Below the pieces are notes generated by a model. That model made no database searches and was not told the origin of the DNA. It saw only the letters and a program-made list of their open reading frames with translations. The position numbers were made by a program, and so were the translations under genes. DNA of 64,000 nt from Petrimonas mucosa (lineage in GTDB: Bacteria > Bacteroidota > Bacteroidia > Bacteroidales > Dysgonomonadaceae). Position 1 is the first letter of the stretch, and each line of letters starts with the position of its first letter. Location of the stretch: NCBI RefSeq assembly GCF_900095795.1, contig NZ_LT608328.1, positions 558,001 to 622,000 of the forward strand, written 5' to 3'. Positions 46,555-55,913 of this stretch are shown in pieces.

Positions 46555-47331
46555 TTATGAACCGGTAACAGATTTTTTCAATTTTTGCACTGCTGCCTCT
46601 ACCGACTCCTCCCCACCGAGCAACGAGACGAACTTGCTGCCGATGATGGCTCCCGAAGCGTGGTCACAGGCCGCGTCGAAGGTGGCCTTGTTGGATATTC
46701 CGAACCCGATGAGCCGGGGATGGCGCAGATTCATGCCGTTCACCCGCCTGAAGTATTGCAGGTTCTCTTCCCCGAAACCCGACTTTGCACCGGTGACCGA
46801 TGCCGACGATACCATGTAGATAAAGCCGCCGGTGTTTTCATCAATCAGCCGGATGCGCTCCTCCGACGTTTCCGGAGTGATCAGCATGATCATGTGAAGA
46901 CCATATTTTTCGGTACTGCCCTTGTACTCCCGCATATATTCGGCAAATGGCAGGTCGGGAATGATCAGCCCGTCGATACCGCAGCGTTGTGCCTCGGCAC
47001 AGAACCTGTCGAACCCGAACTGCAGGATGGGATTCAGATAACCCATCAGTACCAACGGGGTCTCTACCGCAGTACGGATCTGGTCGAGTTGTCTGAAAAG
47101 CACTTTCAAACTCATGCCATTCCTGAGCGCTTCTGTTCCCGATGCTTGGATGACAGGTCCGTCAGCCATCGGATCGCTGAAGGGGATACCTATCTCGATC
47201 AGGTCTACGCCATTTTTTTCGAGCGACCGGATGATCGGGACGGTGTCGTCGAGGTTGGGATATCCTGCCGTGAAATAGACGGAGAGGATGTTTTTACTCT
47301 TTTGTTGAAACAATCGATCTATTCTGTTCAT
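46555..47331 (-). CDS. trpA: Tryptophan synthase alpha chain
   Basis: The 258-residue TIM barrel cleaves indole-3-glycerol phosphate to indole and glyceraldehyde 3-phosphate. The catalytic Glu is in [20 protein letters not shown] and the Asp in [18 protein letters not shown] and GFGISN complete the active site. It is the last trp gene. Its beta partner trpB is first, six genes upstream, an unusual separation compared with trpBA neighbours in many bacteria but normal in Bacteroidota. Confidence 0.96.
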
Positions 47332-47347
47332 ATTGGATGAAGGTGAT

Positions 47348-47959
47348 TTATGATTTCAGCGTTGCAATAAAGTGTCTGATCTTTTGAAGATCCTTCTTGG
47401 CCGGAGTAATCTCGAACCGGCTGTTGATATCAATCCCGATCAGTTTCGGGTGAAGGAGAGTTTTCAATATCCCGGTGTCGTGCGGAGCAATTCCGCCGCT
47501 CAGCAAAAAGGGAGTGTCGCCGCTGTAGTCAGAGAGCAGGTTCCAGTCGAACCGCCTCCCCGAGCCGCCGTGTAGTTTGGTTTGGGTGTCGAACAGGAAG
47601 TAGTCGCACGTGTCGCGGTACTCGGTTGCCGTCTCATCGGGAAACCGGTCGCCCACAGACAACGATTTGATCACTCCTATGCCGGTTTGCCGGATCTCCT
47701 CACAAAATCGTGGGGACTCACTGCCGTGAAGCTGTACCAGCTCCAGTCCGAAAAGCGATGCCGTTTCGATGATCCGCTCTTTCGGTGCATCCACAAAGAC
47801 TCCTACCCGCCTTGCCTGTTGAGGCAGGTATGCCGGAATCTCGCTTACATAACGGGGGGATGCCGGATGGAAGATAAACCCTATCCAGTCGGCCCCGGCC
47901 CGTTCCACCCCTTGTATGTTGGCCGCATCGCGCATTCCGCAAACCTTGATCAGTCTCAT
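47348..47959 (-). CDS. trpF: Phosphoribosylanthranilate isomerase
   Basis: The 203-residue enzyme isomerises PRA to CdRP. Motifs are [12 protein letters not shown] (catalytic Cys7), [39 protein letters not shown] and [10 protein letters not shown] (catalytic Asp near FLFDTQ). It is a separate protein here, not fused to trpC. Its start overlaps the trpC stop by 4 bases (ATGA), implying coupling. Confidence 0.95.
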
Positions 47960-48765
47960 CTTCCCATGCCCCCCTTTCCCGATTTTATCCCTTCGATAAA
48001 CTTTGCCAGGCCTGCTCCGGGATTGGCCTGCTTCATGAAGTTCTCCCCGATGAGGAAACCGAGGTATCCCGCCTTGCGAAGCGCCGTCACCGTTTCCGGA
48101 TTTGAGATCCCGCTTTCCGATACCCGGACGGCATCCTTTGGCAACAATCGGGCCATCTTGCTGGATTTTTCCAGATCGGTCACGAAGCTGCCGAGGTTCC
48201 GGTTGTTGACACCGATGATGTCGTTTTCAGGCGCAATATGTCCGGTCTCCCGTTCGTCGTGAAGCTCCAGCAGCACCTCCAATCCCAGCTGCTTTGCAAA
48301 CCGTGTAAGCCGGAAGCTCTCCTCTACTGTAAGTGCCGCTGCGATCAGCAGGATGGCACTGGCTCCCGCCAACCGGGCCTGCAGGATCTGATACTCATCC
48401 ACGATAAACTCCTTGCGCATCACCGGGATCGATGCCTGGGCTGCCACCTGTTGCAGGTCGTCCAGCCTGCCTCCAAAATAGGCGAGGTCGGTCAGCACCG
48501 ACAGTGCAGCAGCTCCGGCTTTCTCATACCCTCCGGTCACCTCCACCGCATCGGCATGTTGATTTATCCACCCCTTGCTCGGCGATCGGCGTTTGAACTC
48601 AGCGATGATTCCCGTATCGGATCGGAGTAAAGCCTCCTTCAGTGAGTAGACGGGTAGGGAGCAATCTGCCACCTGTCGTTCCAGGCTGGTGTATGATATA
48701 CTCCTCTTTTGCCTCTCTATTTCGTATCGCTTGTGGGCGATGATTTCATTCAAGATATCTCTCAT
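47956..48765 (-). CDS. trpC: Indole-3-glycerol phosphate synthase
   Basis: The 269-residue enzyme closes the indole ring from CdRP. The motif IIAEFKRRSPSKGWI carries the catalytic lysine; LSVLTDLAYFGG, PVMRKEFIVDEYQI, IIGVNNRNLGSF and VSESGISNPETV follow in TIM-barrel order. It overlaps trpF by 4 bases and follows trpD by 11. Confidence 0.96.
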   Translation of the reverse strand: MRDILNEIIAHKRYEIERQKRSISYTSLERQVADCSLPVYSLKEALLRSDTGIIAEFKRRSPSKGWINQHADAVEVTGGYEKAGAAALSVLTDLAYFGGRLDDLQQVAAQASIPVMRKEFIVDEYQILQARLAGASAILLIAAALTVEESFRLTRFAKQLGLEVLLELHDERETGHIAPENDIIGVNNRNLGSFVTDLEKSSKMARLLPKDAVRVSESGISNPETVTALRKAGYLGFLIGENFMKQANPGAGLAKFIEGIKSGKGGMGR

Positions 48766-48776
48766 GTGGGTTTCTC

Positions 48777-49772
48777 TTATCCGTTAACTTCGATAAACCG
48801 TTTGAGTGCATTCAACGCCTTTTTTCCGTACAACGACTCCCGTGCTATCCCGATACACTCCGCGATCGGTTTCTCCGGTTCGATGATCTGAATGGCGAAT
48901 GCGGCATTGGCTACAACCACCTCCATCTGGGCCCGCGTTGCCGTGCAGTTGAGCACCTTGTTGAAGAGGGAGACCGCCTCGTCGATTGTCTCTCCTCCAA
49001 AGATTTCAGCCTCTGTTACCCTGCTGAACCCCAGCTCTTCGGGCATGAAAAGCTGTTCGCCCCGGTTGGTGATCACCTTGAACTGCCCCGTAAGCGAAAT
49101 CTCATCGTAGCCATCCAGGCTGTGAACGATGCCGAACTTTTTACGGCTCGCCTGATAGATATAACTGTAGAGACGCGCCATCGAGAGGTCGTAAACCCCC
49201 AGCAGCTGGTACTCCGGATCTGACGGGTTGATGAGTGGGCCGAGCACGTTGAAGAAATTTCTTACACCCAGACTTTTTCTCACCGGTGCCACCGCCTTGA
49301 GTGCCGGGCTGAAGAGCGGGGCATGAAGGTAGGCGATGTTGGAATGTTCGATGCTTCTTTTCAGGATATTTATGTCGGTGGTGAATCTGATCCCCTGCCG
49401 CTCCATGGCGTTGCTCGATCCGCTGACCGATGTTGATCCGTAATTTCCGTGTTTCACAACGGGATATCCGGCGCCGGCAACCACAAAACAGGCAGATGTG
49501 GAGATGTTGAAGGTGTTTTTCCCGTCGCCCCCGGTTCCGACAATATCGATGGCCCCGTACTCTTTCAGCTCTACCGGCACCCTCATCTCCACCAGTGCCT
49601 CACGGAATCCGAGCACCTCCTCTACCGAGATGCTGCGCATCAGAAAGATTGTGATCAGGGCAGAGACCTGTGTGTCGGGCAGCTCTCCCCTTACGATGGC
49701 CATAAGCAGTTCGCGCGCTTCGTTGCGGCTCAGGTACTGGTACTCCAGTAACTTGACAAGTATATGTTTCAT
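48777..49772 (-). CDS. trpD: Anthranilate phosphoribosyltransferase
   Basis: The 331-residue enzyme adds phosphoribose to anthranilate. The glycine-rich VGTGGDGKNTFNIST, KHGNYGSTSVSGS and the FSPALKAVAPVRKSLGVRNFFNVLGPLINPS motifs define the PRPP and anthranilate sites. It is a stand-alone protein, not fused to trpG. Its start overlaps the trpG stop by 4 bases. Confidence 0.96.
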   Translation of the reverse strand: MKHILVKLLEYQYLSRNEARELLMAIVRGELPDTQVSALITIFLMRSISVEEVLGFREALVEMRVPVELKEYGAIDIVGTGGDGKNTFNISTSACFVVAGAGYPVVKHGNYGSTSVSGSSNAMERQGIRFTTDINILKRSIEHSNIAYLHAPLFSPALKAVAPVRKSLGVRNFFNVLGPLINPSDPEYQLLGVYDLSMARLYSYIYQASRKKFGIVHSLDGYDEISLTGQFKVITNRGEQLFMPEELGFSRVTEAEIFGGETIDEAVSLFNKVLNCTATRAQMEVVVANAAFAIQIIEPEKPIAECIGIARESLYGKKALNALKRFIEVNG

Positions 49773-50335
49773 TTTTCCAGGAAATTTTTTACGATTGTTG
49801 TTCCCAATGGGGTAAGGACCGATTCCGGATGGAACTGGACGCCGTGGATATCCAGGCTCTTATGTCTGATTGCCATGATCTTTCCCGACTCGTCCCGGGC
49901 CGTCACCTCCAGTTCGGATGGGAAATGGTTGTCCGATACGATCCAGGAGTGGTAGCGACCGACCTCTATCCGCTCCGGGAGTTCGTTGAAAATATAATCG
50001 GGGGCGACTATACTGATGGGGGTCTGTACGCCGTGGTGCACCAGGGGAGTGTTCTCGAGGATGGCTCCGAACGACAGACCAATCGCCTGGTGACCCAGAC
50101 AGACGCCCAGTATGCTTTTCAGATGCGCATACTGCCGGATCAGGGGCAGCAGGTCACCCGCCTCCTCCGGAATTCCCGGTCCGGGAGATAGGATAATCTT
50201 GTCGTAGTTGACCACCTCCTCCAGATCGATCTTGTCGTTCCGGATGACGTCGATATCGGTGTAGCCCAATGTGCGGACGACATGACGCAGGTTGTAGGTG
50301 AAGGAGTCGTAGTTGTCGAATATCAATATTTTCAT
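49769..50335 (-). CDS. trpG: Anthranilate synthase component II (glutamine amidotransferase)
   Basis: The 188-residue class I amidotransferase supplies ammonia to TrpE. The nucleophile is in GVCLGHQAIG, with DNYDSFTYNL at the start and GVQFHPESVLTP carrying the catalytic His and Glu. The trpE gene ends 24 bases upstream. It could also serve folate synthesis as PabA. Confidence 0.95.
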   Translation of the reverse strand: MKILIFDNYDSFTYNLRHVVRTLGYTDIDVIRNDKIDLEEVVNYDKIILSPGPGIPEEAGDLLPLIRQYAHLKSILGVCLGHQAIGLSFGAILENTPLVHHGVQTPISIVAPDYIFNELPERIEVGRYHSWIVSDNHFPSELEVTARDESGKIMAIRHKSLDIHGVQFHPESVLTPLGTTIVKNFLEK

Positions 50336-50359
50336 CTTCTTGATCTGTTCTGTTAAACG

Positions 50360-51766
50360 TCATGCATTGTTCAGCTTCCCTGCCAGGTCGATCGCCTTCT
50401 TGAGGGCTCCCAGCTTGTTGTTGACCTCCCGGAGTTCATTCTCGGGAACGCTCTGTGATACGATTCCTGCACCGGCCTGGTACCAGAGCTGGTTGTTCCG
50501 GCTCACAAAGGTGCGGATGGTGATCGCCTGATTGATATCGCCGTTGAAACCGATAAACCCGATACAGCCCCCGTATGCCCCGCGGTTGTGCTCTTCGATC
50601 TCCGAGATCAGTTGCATCGCCCTCACCTTGGGTGCTCCCGAGAGGGTCCCGGCGGGGAAGGTGTCGAAAAAGGCCTGGATGGGATGGACGCCCTCATCGA
50701 GCGTTCCGCTTACACGTGAGACCAGGTGGATGACGTGCGAGTAATACTGCACCTGCCGGTAAAAATCGAGCTTGACCCTTTGGGCGTTCCGGCTCAGGTC
50801 GTTCCGGGCCAGGTCGACCAGCATCACGTGTTCGGCATTCTCTTTGGGGTCGTTTTTGAGGCGTTCGGTCGCCCGGGCATCCTCCTGAATGTTCCCTGTA
50901 CGTTTGGCCGTTCCGGCAATCGGATCGATGCTGATTGTCCTGCCGGTAATCCGGCAATGGGTCTCGGGCGACGAGCCGAAGATGCGGAAGCCGCCAAAGT
51001 CGAAGTAGAAGAGATAGGGTGAGGGATTGATGGTACGCAAGGCGCGGTAAACCTTGAAATCATCGCCCGAGAACTCCTGCACGAAACGGCGGGAGAGAAC
51101 GATCTGGAACAGATCGCCCCGATAACAGTGATCGATCCCCTGCCTTACATGCTCTATGAACTGCTCGTCGGTAATGGGACTCGATTCCCGGCCGTGGATA
51201 AAGAAGTCGTACGATGCGAAATTCCTGGCATTGATCCGGTTCTCCAGTATATGGAGGGAGCTCTCTTCGCCATCGGAAAGCAGTTCGATCAGCAGCAGTT
51301 CGTCGCTCTGGTGGTTGAAGACCATCAGGTATTTGTAGAGGATATACCTCATATCGGGTGCGTCGTTGCGCTCCTCGGTACTCTCCTTGATGTTGATCCC
51401 CTCGGTATACTTCACACAGTTGAAGGTGGTATAGCCGAAAAGTCCCGTTAGGGATGCATTGTCGCCCTGGATCCGGAAATTGCTGATAAAGCTGCTCAAT
51501 GCCGCTGATATGGTAACCTCTTCCGATATACGGGTATTGACGGTTCTGCCGTCGGGATAGCTTTCGATACACTCGCCCCGGTTAATGTCGATGCAGGCAA
51601 TCGGTTTCAGTCCGATATAGGATGTGCTGTTCTCGTTGGCGTGATAATCGGAGCTTTCGAGCAGAGCCGACTGGGGAAAGGCGTCACGGACCTTCAGGTA
51701 GAGGCTTACCGGCGTATGGAGGTCGCCCATCACCTTTTTGCAGTTCGTTGTATAAGCGTATGACAT
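50360..51766 (-). CDS. trpE: Anthranilate synthase component I
   Basis: The 468-residue catalytic subunit turns chorismate into anthranilate. The LLESS motif near residue 35 is part of the tryptophan feedback-inhibition site. The chorismate-binding half has RFVQEFSGDDFKVYRALRTINPSPYLFYFDFGGFRIFGSSPE and DPIAGTAKRTG. It is followed by GTLSGAPKVRAMQLI and EHNRGAYGGCIGFIGF. ATG 51766 is chosen; a GTG at 51805 overlaps the trpB stop but adds 13 lysine-rich residues. Confidence 0.96.
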   Translation of the reverse strand: MSYAYTTNCKKVMGDLHTPVSLYLKVRDAFPQSALLESSDYHANENSTSYIGLKPIACIDINRGECIESYPDGRTVNTRISEEVTISAALSSFISNFRIQGDNASLTGLFGYTTFNCVKYTEGINIKESTEERNDAPDMRYILYKYLMVFNHQSDELLLIELLSDGEESSLHILENRINARNFASYDFFIHGRESSPITDEQFIEHVRQGIDHCYRGDLFQIVLSRRFVQEFSGDDFKVYRALRTINPSPYLFYFDFGGFRIFGSSPETHCRITGRTISIDPIAGTAKRTGNIQEDARATERLKNDPKENAEHVMLVDLARNDLSRNAQRVKLDFYRQVQYYSHVIHLVSRVSGTLDEGVHPIQAFFDTFPAGTLSGAPKVRAMQLISEIEEHNRGAYGGCIGFIGFNGDINQAITIRTFVSRNNQLWYQAGAGIVSQSVPENELREVNNKLGALKKAIDLAGKLNNA

Positions 51767-51801
51767 GGCTGTTGTTTTTTTCAATTTTAATCCTTCTTCA
51801 C

Positions 51802-52992
51802 TCACTCTATAATATCGTTGATCTTGAAATAGGTCTCCAGGTCCTTGTCGCCTCGACCCGACAGGGTGAGGACAACCAGATCGCCCTGGTTGAACCGGAT
51901 CTTGTCGAGGGCAGCTATCGCATGGGCCGATTCCAGGGCAGGAATGATCCCTTCGTTTCGGGTGAGTGCAAGACCTGCCCGCAGTGCTTCGTCGTCGTTG
52001 ACGGCAACCACCTTTGCCCGTCTGGTTTTAGCCAGATGGGCGTGGATGGGACCGATACCCGGATAGTCCAGTCCTGCCGAGATGGAATAGGGTTCGGTGA
52101 TCTGCCCGTCTTCGGTCTGCATCACCAATGTTTTGCATCCATGGATGATCCCTTCGGTGCCGATCTGGATGGTGGCGGCAGACTCTCCGCTGTGGATCCC
52201 CTTGCCGCCCGCTTCGGCCAGCACGATCTTCACTCTCTCCTCAGCAAGGAAGTGGTAGATGGTTCCGGCGGCGTTGCTGCCTCCGCCCACGCACGCAACA
52301 AGGTAATCGGGAGAGGGACGGTTCTCCTTTTCCATCAGTTGCCTGCCGATCTCTTCACTGATGACCGACTGCAGTCGGGCCACCATGTCGGGGTAGGGGT
52401 GCGGTCCTACGGTGGAGCCGATGATGTAGTGGGTGTTTGCGGGGTTGCAGCACCAGTCGCGTATCGCCTCGTTGGTAGCATCCTTCAGCGTCATGTTTCC
52501 CGAGGTGACCGGGACGACCGTCGCGCCCAGCATCTCCATCTTTCTGACGTTGACCGCTTGTCGCTCCACATCGGTCTTGCCCATATATACGATACACTCC
52601 ATCTGCATCAGCGCACAGACGGTGGCGGTTGCCACACCATGCTGTCCGGCGCCGGTTTCGGCGATGATCCTGCTTTTCCCCAGTTGTTTGGCGACGAGGA
52701 TCTGGCCGATGGTGTTGTTGATCTTGTGTGCCCCGGTGTGGTTCAGGTCCTCCCGCTTGAGGTAGACACGGCAACCGTGCCTGGCGGAGAGGTAGCCGGA
52801 GAGGTAGAGCGGAGACGGCCTGCCCACATAATCCCTCAGCAGCCGGTTGAACTCCTCCCTGAAGGCGTCGCTTTCCAGGATCTCCAGGTAGGAGTCCTGC
52901 AGTTCGGTGACGCAGCGGTGAAGAATTTCGGGGATATAGGCCCCGCCGAATTCACCGTAAAATCCCGATTTATCCACTGAAAATTTTTGCAT
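51802..52992 (-). CDS. trpB: Tryptophan synthase beta chain
   Basis: The 396-residue PLP enzyme joins indole and serine. The PLP lysine is in NHTGAHKINN; the glycine-rich phosphate site is VGGGSNAAG; and the substrate motif AETGAGQHGVA and SAGLDYPGIGP are present. It is the first gene of the trp operon, directly after the attenuator at 53020-53049, so its expression depends on antitermination. Confidence 0.97.
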   Translation of the reverse strand: MQKFSVDKSGFYGEFGGAYIPEILHRCVTELQDSYLEILESDAFREEFNRLLRDYVGRPSPLYLSGYLSARHGCRVYLKREDLNHTGAHKINNTIGQILVAKQLGKSRIIAETGAGQHGVATATVCALMQMECIVYMGKTDVERQAVNVRKMEMLGATVVPVTSGNMTLKDATNEAIRDWCCNPANTHYIIGSTVGPHPYPDMVARLQSVISEEIGRQLMEKENRPSPDYLVACVGGGSNAAGTIYHFLAEERVKIVLAEAGGKGIHSGESAATIQIGTEGIIHGCKTLVMQTEDGQITEPYSISAGLDYPGIGPIHAHLAKTRRAKVVAVNDDEALRAGLALTRNEGIIPALESAHAIAALDKIRFNQGDLVVLTLSGRGDKDLETYFKINDIIE

Positions 52993-53019
52993 ATCCTGTT
53001 GTTTTTGTCAATTCCAACG

Positions 53020-53049
53020 AAAAAAGCCTGTCGCAGGTGCGACAGGCTT
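53020..53049 (-). terminator. Trp attenuator terminator
   Basis: On the minus strand AAGCCTGTCGCA-CC-TGCGACAGGCTT forms a strong hairpin (about 10 pairs, 6-base effective loop) followed by six U residues. It lies between the leader peptide stop and trpB (28 bases upstream of trpB), exactly where an attenuator is expected. Confidence 0.85.
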
Positions 53050-53093
53050 CTCTATATTGTTGCTCATTCTTGCTGATAGATACGACTGCTTCC

Positions 53094-53116
53094 CTTACGA
53101 CCGGTCGGGTAGTAAG
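53094..53116 (-). promoter_or_regulatory. Possible protector hairpin of the trp leader
   Basis: CTTAC (53116-53112) pairs with GTAAG (53098-53094); an inner ACC/GGT pair adds three bases. It would sequester CGACCGG (53107-53101), which can otherwise pair with CCTGTCG of the terminator stem except for one mismatch. Confidence 0.55.
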
Positions 53117-53154
53117 TGACGCCACCAATATCTGTTTGCAAGTGAAGTGTACAT
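53095..53154 (-). CDS. trpL: trp leader peptide (19 codons, tandem Trp)
   Basis: The minus strand reads ATG at 53154 then MYTSLANRYWWRHLLPDRS and TAA at 53095. Tryptophan codons are rare, yet two occur side by side at codons 10-11 (53127-53122). Ribosome stalling at these codons when Trp-tRNA is scarce would leave the CGACCGG segment free, about 15 bases downstream, for antiterminator pairing. The start is 19 bases past the TACATTTG promoter box, and the attenuator terminator follows 45 bases after the stop. The peptide probably has no function beyond sensing tryptophan. No database search was possible, but layout and codon content are decisive. Confidence 0.82.
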   Translation of the reverse strand: MYTSLANRYWWRHLLPDRS

Positions 53155-53172
53155 TTTCGTCTTATTTTGCTG

Positions 53173-53203
53173 CAAATGTAGGATGAAAAAAATAAAATGC
53201 AAT
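53173..53203 (-). promoter_or_regulatory. Promoter of the trp operon
   Basis: On the minus strand ATTG (53203-53200), 19 bases, TACATTTG (53180-53173) fits the Bacteroidota consensus apart from one base in the -33 box. Transcription would begin near 53166, about 12 bases before the leader ATG. Confidence 0.75.
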
Positions 53204-53420: not shown

Positions 53421-55913
53421 ATGAGAAAAGCTCAACTTCTAACAATACTTTTGCTTCTGGCAGCGGTTTTCGCTGCCGGAGCACAACCAAGAAGAGAGAT
53501 TACCCTAAAAAAGGGGTGGCTCTTTTCCCGCGAAGATAATCCGGCCGCAGCTCAATCCGGGTTCAATGATGGCAACTGGCAATCGGTGACGGTTCCACAC
53601 GATTGGGCCATTTACGGCCCGTTCGACAAGTCGAACGATATCCACCGGATGGCTATCGTTCAGGACGGACAGACCACTGCTATTGAACATTACGGCCGGA
53701 CAGGGGGATTGCCCTTTACCGGTGCAGGATGGTACCGGAACCGGTTTACCATCCCCGGCTTTACCGGCGGGAAGCGGGTCCATCTCCTGTTCGACGGGGC
53801 GATGAGCAATGCCCGGGTTTATGTAAACGGCAGGGAGGTAGGTTACTGGCCCAACGGATACAACAGTTTTTATTTCGATATTACAGACTTTGTTCATGAG
53901 GAGGGGAGGGAGAACCTGTTGGCTGTCCGGCTCGAAAATTTTGAAGAGCAGTCGCGCTGGTACCCGGGTGCAGGGCTTTACCGCAATGTACACCTGATTG
54001 TTACGGAGAAAACATATATACCTATCTGGGGAAGCTACGTCACTACTCCCGTTGTGACCCCCGGTTTTGCACGGGTGAATGTCCGTACGCGCGTGGAGAG
54101 TGCCGGCGGGGGGACCTTGAAGCTGGTCACTCAGATCAGGGATGAGACGCAGCAGACAGTCGCTACTGCAGAGAGCACTCTCTCGGAAAGCGATATGGGC
54201 CAGTTCTCACAGGAGCTGGTCGTTGAAAATCCCCGGTTGTGGGACATCAAACAGCCGAACCTCTATACAGCGGTATCCCGGCTGTATGAAGATGGTCGGC
54301 TGGTGGATGAGTACTGCACCCCTTTCGGAATCCGGACCCTGGAGATCAGGCCCGACGAGGGATTCTTTCTCAACGGCAGAGAGGTCAAGTTCAAGGGTGT
54401 CTGTCTCCATCACGACTTGGGACCGCTGGGTGCTGCCGTCAATGAGGCGGCCATCCGTCGCCAGATACGTACCATGCAGGATATGGGTGCCAATGCGATC
54501 CGCACCTCCCACAACATGCCCGCACCCGAATTTGTCCGGATTGCCGATGAGATGGGGATGATGCTGATGGTGGAGAGCTTCGACGAATGGGCCATCCCGA
54601 AGGTGAAAAATGGGTACAACCGCTATTTCAAGTCGTGGGCGGAGAGGGATCTGGTCAACCTGTTGCACCACTACCGGAACAATCCCAGTGTGGTGATGTG
54701 GTGTATCGGCAATGAGGTGGAGGAGCAGAGCCATAAGCATGGTTCGCGGGTGGCGAGATTCCTGCAGGATATCTGTCACCGGGAGGATCCGACGCGTCCG
54801 GTAACCAACGGGATGGACCGGCCCGATCAGGTACTTTCCAACCATATGGCGGCGATGATGGAGGTCCCGGGATTCAACTACCGGCCCTTCCGTTACCGGG
54901 AGGCGTATGACCGCCTGCCACAACAGATCATACTGGGCAGTGAGACCGCCTCCACCCTCAGTTCGCGCGGGGTATACAAGTTTCCGGTAGTGCGGAGGTC
55001 GATGGCCCAGTACGATGACCACCAGGCGTCATCGTACGACGTGGAGCACTGCAGCTGGTCGAATCTGCCAGAGGACGATTTCATCCAGCACGATGAGTTA
55101 CCCTATACCATCGGTGAGTTTATCTGGACAGGCATCGACTACCTGGGCGAGCCCACCCCCTACTACAGCGCCTGGCCCAGCCACAGCTCCCTCTTTGGGG
55201 CGGTGGATCTGGCAGGTATCCCCAAGGATCGTTTCTATCTCTACCGCAGTCACTGGAACAGCGACGCGGAGACCCTCCATATCCTGCCCCACTGGAACTG
55301 GAAGGGACGTGAAGGGGAGGTGACACCTATCTTTGTCTATACCAGTTACCCGTCGGCCGAACTCTTCATCAACGGGAAGAGTCAGGGTCTCCGCACGAAG
55401 GATCTCTCCGTACCACTCGAAGGGAGCGATTCGGCCGAAGCACGGAAAAGGTTAGAACGGCAGAAACGGTACCGGCTGATGTGGATGGATACCCGCTATG
55501 AGCCGGGGACGGTAAGGGTGGTGGCTTACGATAACGATGGGAAGGCGGTTGCAGAGAAAGAGATACATACTGCCGGAAAGCCGCACCGTATTGTGCTGGA
55601 GGCCGATCGCCGCGAGATCGATGGCGACGGTGAGGATATTGCCTTCGTGAATGTGAAGCTCGTGGACAAGGCTGGCAATTTCTGTCCCACGGATGACCGG
55701 GAGATCAGCTTCACGGTGAAGGGTGCCGGCAGATTCAAGGCGGTCGCCAATGGAAATCCGGCCAGCCTGGAGTCGTTCCAGCTTCCCCGGATGAAGCTCT
55801 TCAGCGGCCAGCTCACAGCCTTGGTGCAGGCAGGAGAAGAGTCCGGGACTCTTGTGTTGGAAGCAAAGGCGGAAGGGGTTCGCAGCGGCCGGGTCGAGAT
55901 TCGGGTAAAATAG
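53421..55913 (+). CDS. Glycoside hydrolase family 2 beta-galactosidase-like, secreted
   Basis: The 830-residue product has a signal peptide ending AAGAQ. The order is sugar-binding domain (about 30-195, with GLPFTGAGWYRNRF), Ig-like domain, TIM barrel with GVCLHHDLGPLGAAVN and RTSHNMPAPEF, acid/base in MWCIGNEVEE (Glu432) and nucleophile in ILGSETAS (Glu508). C-terminal Ig-like domains follow (DUF4982 type from about 620, then a domain starting HRIVLEADRREIDGDGED). This pattern is typical of Bacteroidota GH2 beta-galactosidases that act on oligosaccharides or host glycans. It is divergent from the trp operon with a repeat-rich promoter region. Confidence 0.9.
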   Translation: MRKAQLLTILLLLAAVFAAGAQPRREITLKKGWLFSREDNPAAAQSGFNDGNWQSVTVPHDWAIYGPFDKSNDIHRMAIVQDGQTTAIEHYGRTGGLPFTGAGWYRNRFTIPGFTGGKRVHLLFDGAMSNARVYVNGREVGYWPNGYNSFYFDITDFVHEEGRENLLAVRLENFEEQSRWYPGAGLYRNVHLIVTEKTYIPIWGSYVTTPVVTPGFARVNVRTRVESAGGGTLKLVTQIRDETQQTVATAESTLSESDMGQFSQELVVENPRLWDIKQPNLYTAVSRLYEDGRLVDEYCTPFGIRTLEIRPDEGFFLNGREVKFKGVCLHHDLGPLGAAVNEAAIRRQIRTMQDMGANAIRTSHNMPAPEFVRIADEMGMMLMVESFDEWAIPKVKNGYNRYFKSWAERDLVNLLHHYRNNPSVVMWCIGNEVEEQSHKHGSRVARFLQDICHREDPTRPVTNGMDRPDQVLSNHMAAMMEVPGFNYRPFRYREAYDRLPQQIILGSETASTLSSRGVYKFPVVRRSMAQYDDHQASSYDVEHCSWSNLPEDDFIQHDELPYTIGEFIWTGIDYLGEPTPYYSAWPSHSSLFGAVDLAGIPKDRFYLYRSHWNSDAETLHILPHWNWKGREGEVTPIFVYTSYPSAELFINGKSQGLRTKDLSVPLEGSDSAEARKRLERQKRYRLMWMDTRYEPGTVRVVAYDNDGKAVAEKEIHTAGKPHRIVLEADRREIDGDGEDIAFVNVKLVDKAGNFCPTDDREISFTVKGAGRFKAVANGNPASLESFQLPRMKLFSGQLTALVQAGEESGTLVLEAKAEGVRSGRVEIRVK

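Follow-up and report, generated by a model that had tools for sequence, protein, structure and literature searches.

A tryptophan leader upstream of trpB in Petrimonas mucosa with a predicted antiterminator that pairs with the terminator loop and 3′ arm

The window analysed here is a 64,000-nucleotide stretch of the Petrimonas mucosa genome (NZ_LT608328.1, positions 558,001–622,000), and coordinates are positions within it unless stated otherwise. It contains a tryptophan biosynthesis operon transcribed on the minus strand, with a gene order of trpB-E-G-D-C-F-A that is consistent with NCBIfam matches. The first gene is trpB (51802–52992; TIGR00263, 565.9 bits), followed by trpE, trpG, trpD, trpC, trpF and trpA, in that order (46555–51805); trpB, trpD, trpC, trpA and the TrpG/PabA subfamily score above cut-off, and trpE and trpF are assigned from best hits below it. 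The closest named TrpB among the matches listed is from Petrimonas sp. IBARAKI (87% identity). A second, distant TrpB homologue (36% identity) is encoded outside the window in the same genome (G000:C1:2086981–2088039) and is present in further genomes of the genus. A divergent gene on the plus strand (53421–55913) points away from the trp promoter, and its best match is the beta-galactosidase GalB (NF041463; 873.2 bits, slightly below the 900-bit cut-off).

The minus-strand segment from 53202 to 52993 contains, in order, a promoter-like pair, a 19-codon open reading frame and a long hairpin, followed by an intrinsic terminator whose U run comprises six residues. The promoter-like pair comprises a −33-like TTG (53200–53202) and, 19 nt from it, a −7-like TACATTTG (53173–53180); the combination TTG-N19-TACATTTG (53202–53173) fits the Bacteroidota −33/−7 consensus, in keeping with the Bacteroidota promoter of the initial annotation of this region. 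A sigma-70 promoter scan is uninformative for the trp promoter, as its consensus does not cover the Bacteroidota −33/−7 type, and its listing lacks the minus-strand terminator because the U run lies partly within the stem. The leader ORF (MYTSLANRYWWRHLLPDRS; 53095–53154) runs from an ATG at 53154 to a TAA stop at 53097–53095 and includes two adjacent Trp codons, TGG TGG (53127–53122). The terminator (53020–53052) has a stem extending from 53052 to 53021, with a 5′ arm (53052–53039), a loop (53038–53035), a 3′ arm (53034–53021) and a U6 run (53025–53020), and lies 28 nt upstream of the trpB ATG at 52992. These coordinates confirm the 19-codon frame with tandem Trp codons and the hairpin-plus-U6 terminator that had been read from the sequence initially. 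Between the Trp codons and the terminator, CUUAC (53112–53116) forms the 5′ arm of a protector and would lie under a ribosome sitting on the Trp codons; its 3′ arm GUAAG (53094–53098) shares nucleotides both with the stop codon and with the antiterminator arm described below. Both belong to a 1:2 hairpin (53069–53142) identified from a model alignment and predicted folds. The 155-nt leader RNA has a folding z-score of −4.29, and none of 200 shuffled sequences is equally stable.

The leader is a member of a catalogued Bacteroidota family, RF01692 (Bacteroid-trp, the "Bacteroidete tryptophan peptide leader RNA"), and is thus not new for the lineage. The initial annotation knew of no description in this lineage, and that claim does not survive the Rfam entry, nor Table 1 of PMC2864571 (2010), where Bacteroid-trp is given as an RNA that is probably cis-regulatory in Bacteroidetes. 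The RF01692 model aligns over its full length (positions 1–131) at the trp leader (53041–53175, minus strand), in an orthologous position before trp genes, with 40 bits (E 0.0016 in a 261-nt stretch); this falls below the 49-bit gathering score, which is a curation cut-off and not a property of the RNA. A scan of the whole window with Rfam yields no family at gathering score, T-box, TRAP and other listed leaders included. Two of ten genomes in the genus carry loci above the RF01692 cut-off (G006, 59.5 bits; G001, 52.0 bits), two have matches below it (G005 and G007), and the remainder have no match at E 0.001; the window leader can be aligned with the loci that exceed the cut-off, and each lies before trpB. 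A search of 61 related genomes, with filters strict enough to overlook the window locus itself, yields matches at E 0.001 in 23 and scores above the cut-off in 16. RF01692 and the window leader share the position before trp genes, a YWW(W) leader, the same 1:2 hairpin and the start of the terminator 5′ arm. However, that hairpin is the only one in the RF01692 structure line, which ends inside the terminator 5′ arm and includes neither a terminator nor an antiterminator, whereas the window leader has a terminator and a predicted antiterminator.

Conservation of the Trp codons was evaluated at named loci anchored on trpB, because circularity was to be avoided. These are the best 80 of more than 594 TrpB-matching stretches, of which 78 have at least 150 nt upstream. 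A short ATG-initiated ORF with an in-frame TGGTGG precedes trpB at 61 of these 78 loci, compared to 15 of 3900 dinucleotide shuffles, and it is followed by a terminator in 59 of the 61, such that the tandem Trp codons of the initial annotation are widely kept in relatives. Nine of the 17 loci without such an ORF have Prevotella, Prevotellaceae or Segatella titles; examples of loci lacking the leader are L285 (Segatella baroniae), L277 and L289. Within the genus, a canonical trpB is present in eight of ten genomes (in two pieces in G008), and all eight have the leader before it. The other two (G003 and G004; 89% and 97% complete) contain only distant TrpB homologues and no strong leader match, an apparent joint loss of trpB and leader, or else assembly gaps.

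A covariance model was built from 24 leaders and given no structure other than the terminator. At E 0.001 it matches 92 of 101 genomes of the family, 124 of 295 of the order and 79 of 395 of the phylum, tallies that include many weak and probably chance matches; weak matches (about 30–40 bits) were left out of the leader count. From fetched loci up to class level, 164 distinct leaders were selected for tandem TGG and a terminator; the terminator is strong in 161, and dereplication at 75% gives 79 representatives. Because TGGTGG was a selection requirement, this larger set is silent on Trp-codon conservation, which rests on the trpB-anchored loci. A pattern search finds no second leader copy in the P. 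mucosa genome, using a pattern that fits neither stop type exactly and may miss some. Two loci, L196 (G296) and L198 (G042), each have two leaders with tandem Trp codons, arranged in succession and with a terminator for each; these, and perhaps L192, L200 and L201, could be tandem Trp attenuators.

Comparison of these leaders supports an antiterminator in which GUCGURAG, located at the leader stop codon, is predicted to pair with the terminator loop and 3′ arm. The corresponding outer helix in the window has a leader arm GUCGUAAGGG (53092–53101) and a partner CACCUGCGAC (53030–53039) composed of terminator loop and the start of the 3′ arm; it is imperfect, with a bulged A. Two types are distinguishable by eye: leaders with a UAA stop have GUCGUAAGG and terminators containing CCU(U)GCGAC, and leaders with a UGA stop have GUCGUGAG and terminators containing CUCACGAC. 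Rarer types also have matching partners: L187 and L189 have CGGGAG:CUCCCG, L192 has GUUGCAGUU:AACUGCGAC, and further types occur in L205, L206 and L209. In two leaders (L016 and L020) the ORF ends elsewhere and GUCGURAG is still present, which marks it as an element of the RNA rather than a mere stop codon.

The pairing was evaluated with an alignment-free swap test, in which the duplex energy of each of the 79 representative leaders with its own terminator is compared with that for swapped terminators in 5000 permutations. For the loop plus 3′ arm, the mean is −11.07 with own terminators and −9.52 (sd 0.23) with swapped ones, and none of the 5000 permutations is as good. The own terminator is better than the median swap in 57 of 79 leaders, a number that rises to 70 if the loop plus 3′ arm is trimmed to its first 9 nt. 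A point against the pairing is that, taken individually, only 34 of 79 leaders outscore all but 2 of 40 shuffled versions of themselves. Clade structure alone was considered as a source of the signal and rejected, as the result holds at 65% and 58% dereplication (23 of 26 leaders better with their own terminator at 58%; 0/5000) and within sets containing only TGA-stop (40) or TAA-stop (27) leaders (0/5000 in each).

Covariation in a structure-blind alignment of 158 leaders points to the same contact. The seven highest-ranking pairs are all within the terminator, and the eighth and ninth connect leader and loop (49:106, z 7.6; 47:108, z 7.2), with a further leader:loop pair (46:109) ranking lower (z 4.7). 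Within the terminator the loop is unpartnered, so that similarity between the leader and the 5′ arm cannot account for this covariation. Across 93 dereplicated rows, 642 of 737 cells of the outer helix are paired (87%) and 59 have both sides changed, compared to 23–46% paired and 13–19 both-sided cells when the helix is slid; these cells come from relatives and are not independent events. The terminator itself is paired in 879 of 910 cells. The protector proposed initially (CTTAC/GTAAG; 53116–53112 and 53098–53094) is likewise conserved, with 372 of 451 cells paired, but has few both-sided changes (six, versus 8–24 when slid). Comparison shows four elements, namely the Trp codons, the protector, the terminator and the leader:loop/3′ arm pairing. 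The antiterminator suggested in the initial annotation, CGACCGG with CCTGTCG, is present with one mismatch as described, but its pairing is not conserved in the same alignment (a raw frequency of 296 of 627 cells, 47%), and it was rejected in favor of the contact with the loop and 3′ arm.

The strongest alternative is that the switch is wired as in Escherichia coli, with a leader segment pairing with the terminator 5′ arm, through CGACCGG:CCTGTCG or something close to it, and that the loop/3′ arm pairing is incidental. The E. coli trpL leader (NC_000913) does resemble the window leader in having tandem Trp codons (10–11) in a short ORF, a U-tract terminator and a logic based on ribosome position. 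It differs in that its stop is five codons past the first Trp codon, whereas the predicted antiterminator arm of the window spans the stop codon, and in that the same treatment gives five leader pairs with the 5′ arm and none with the loop plus 3′ arm. For the Bacteroidia leaders, textbook 2:3 pairing that sequesters the 5′ arm leaves no comparative signal. In the swap test against the 5′ arm the mean is −6.56 for own terminators and −6.52 for swapped ones, with 2052 of 5000 permutations as good, and shuffled leaders are at −6.37. The test is weak on this arm because the arm is nearly invariant, and a short 4-bp helix to it, GCAG:CUGU, is part of the predicted antiterminator; the low frequency of CGACCGG:CCTGTCG pairing speaks against the E. 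coli wiring. The swap test can moreover detect 5′ arm pairing, as it does in His leaders of the Bacteroidales. Like the Trp leader, these precede a biosynthetic gene (hisG), with a His-run leader ORF and a terminator, but in 24 leader–terminator pairs there is a signal for both the 5′ arm (0/5000) and the loop plus 3′ arm (4/5000). Overall, we regard E. coli-like wiring as improbable.

The P. mucosa genome itself contains one such His leader outside the window (L323, G000:C1), a His-rich ORF MKVNKLHHHHFHTCCQAR and a terminator upstream of hisG (1925437–1925901, minus strand). A His-rich ORF is found within 760 nt upstream at 22 of 30 hisG loci of the order, as a raw count. In PMC1262725, predicted trp attenuators of the Actinobacteria have UGG repeats and antiterminators and terminators with common segments, as in the window, but they are described with shared complementary triples and belong to a different phylum.

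Folding calculations indicate how the arms might be exchanged, using a ribosome that covers 12 nt downstream of its codon, a figure given in PMC4833913. With the ribosome placed on either Trp codon, CUUAC is covered and GUCGUAAGGG is free. The RNA beyond it is then predicted, unprompted, to form three nested helices: an inner UCUAU:AUAGA (53076–53080 with 53051–53055), a middle GCAG:CUGU (53086–53089 with 53042–53045, in the terminator 5′ arm) and an outer helix that joins GUCGUA.GGG to the loop and 3′ arm. In the extending transcript, these two segments stay with the leader to reference position 115, with a near tie at 116 (window position 53027); from position 117 the terminator is favored, by about 12 kcal/mol at the end. 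The modelled antiterminator therefore prevails over the terminator up to the point where about 8 nt of the 3′ arm have emerged. RNA polymerase conceals roughly the last 9–14 nt of a transcript, and the exposed end with polymerase in the U-tract would therefore be about where the antiterminator is favored. With the ribosome on the stop codon, the antiterminator arm is covered, which leaves the modelled terminator to form. The terminator also forms in the ribosome-free model, where the arm is kept in the 1:2 hairpin.

Similar calculations for the 79 representatives place the antiterminator first among the folds for at least one 3′ end in 75, compared to 36% of 790 shuffled leaders, and four have no such fold. 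In 78 representatives the arm starts past the footprint of a ribosome on the first Trp codon. A ribosome on the stop codon covers half of the arm or more in 66, and arm and stop codon overlap in 48 (random placement, 33%). The full-length RNA has the terminator as its best fold in 76 of 79, and the antiterminator must therefore act within a short kinetic window.

This preference of the full-length RNA for the terminator, together with the involvement of loop nucleotides that are free in a finished hairpin, is what a different role for a genuine leader:loop contact would call for: one opposite to antitermination, or acting after the decision on the completed terminator or the released RNA, in stability or pausing. 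Such a role is also improbable, and slightly more so than E. coli-like wiring. The contact extends into the 3′ arm, which is occupied in the finished terminator, and an arm that is freed by a stalled ribosome and covered by a terminating one is in line with a Trp switch. A chance ORF ahead of a constitutive, promoter-proximal terminator without regulation is scarcely credible, given the excess of tandem-Trp ORFs at trpB loci over shuffles, the covariation and the existence of the Rfam family.

We therefore consider it very probable that the locus is a transcription attenuator of the ribosome-mediated type, with charged tRNA-Trp as the signal sensed, and that it uses an antiterminator between the leader and the terminator loop and 3′ arm. 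It has a leader ORF with tandem codons for the amino acid of the pathway, an intrinsic terminator before the first structural gene and, by comparison and calculation, an antiterminator that excludes the terminator and becomes available when the ribosome stalls. We infer the Trp response, the ribosome stalling and its timing against polymerase to be as follows. When Trp is low, the ribosome would stall at UGG UGG (53127–53122) and hide CUUAC, setting free GUCGUAAGGG, the arm across the leader stop codon. As the terminator emerges from polymerase, GUCGUAAGGG would pair with CACCUGCGAC in order of its appearance, the loop before the beginning of the 3′ arm, and the outer helix would enclose UCUAU:AUAGA and GCAG:CUGU, which hold the region. 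With polymerase still in the U-tract, the 3′ arm would be captured before it could zip with the 5′ arm, and trpBEGDCFA would be transcribed. When Trp is sufficient, a ribosome at the stop codon would hide the antiterminator arm and the terminator would form; in the absence of translation, the 1:2 hairpin would retain the arm with the same outcome.

The attenuator is an ordinary kind of system that was correctly spotted in the initial annotation, and the specific part is the antiterminator wiring, which is well supported. A search of the open-licence PMC literature found no description of this wiring, and one may be present in the attenuation survey of Lopatovskaya et al. (2010) or the supplement of PMC2864571. 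With less assurance than for the single locus, we favor the generalization that in the class Bacteroidia the Trp attenuators have their antiterminator reversed, with a stop-codon arm that captures the emerging loop and 3′ arm instead of the 5′ arm beforehand. If so, the decision would be a co-transcriptional race, and the stop codon, protector and terminator loop would co-evolve, with CCUGCGAC accompanying UAA, CUCACGAC accompanying UGA, and rarer combinations such as CGGGAG with CUCCCG.

RF01692, which has been catalogued apparently without a described mechanism, is thereby linked to a definite one, with a precise antiterminator that differs from the textbook model and is open to test. If this is correct, a phylum that matters in guts and digesters would carry out amino-acid attenuation by capturing the late side of the terminator, which would bear on how fast nascent RNA must pair and on how RF01692 is modelled.
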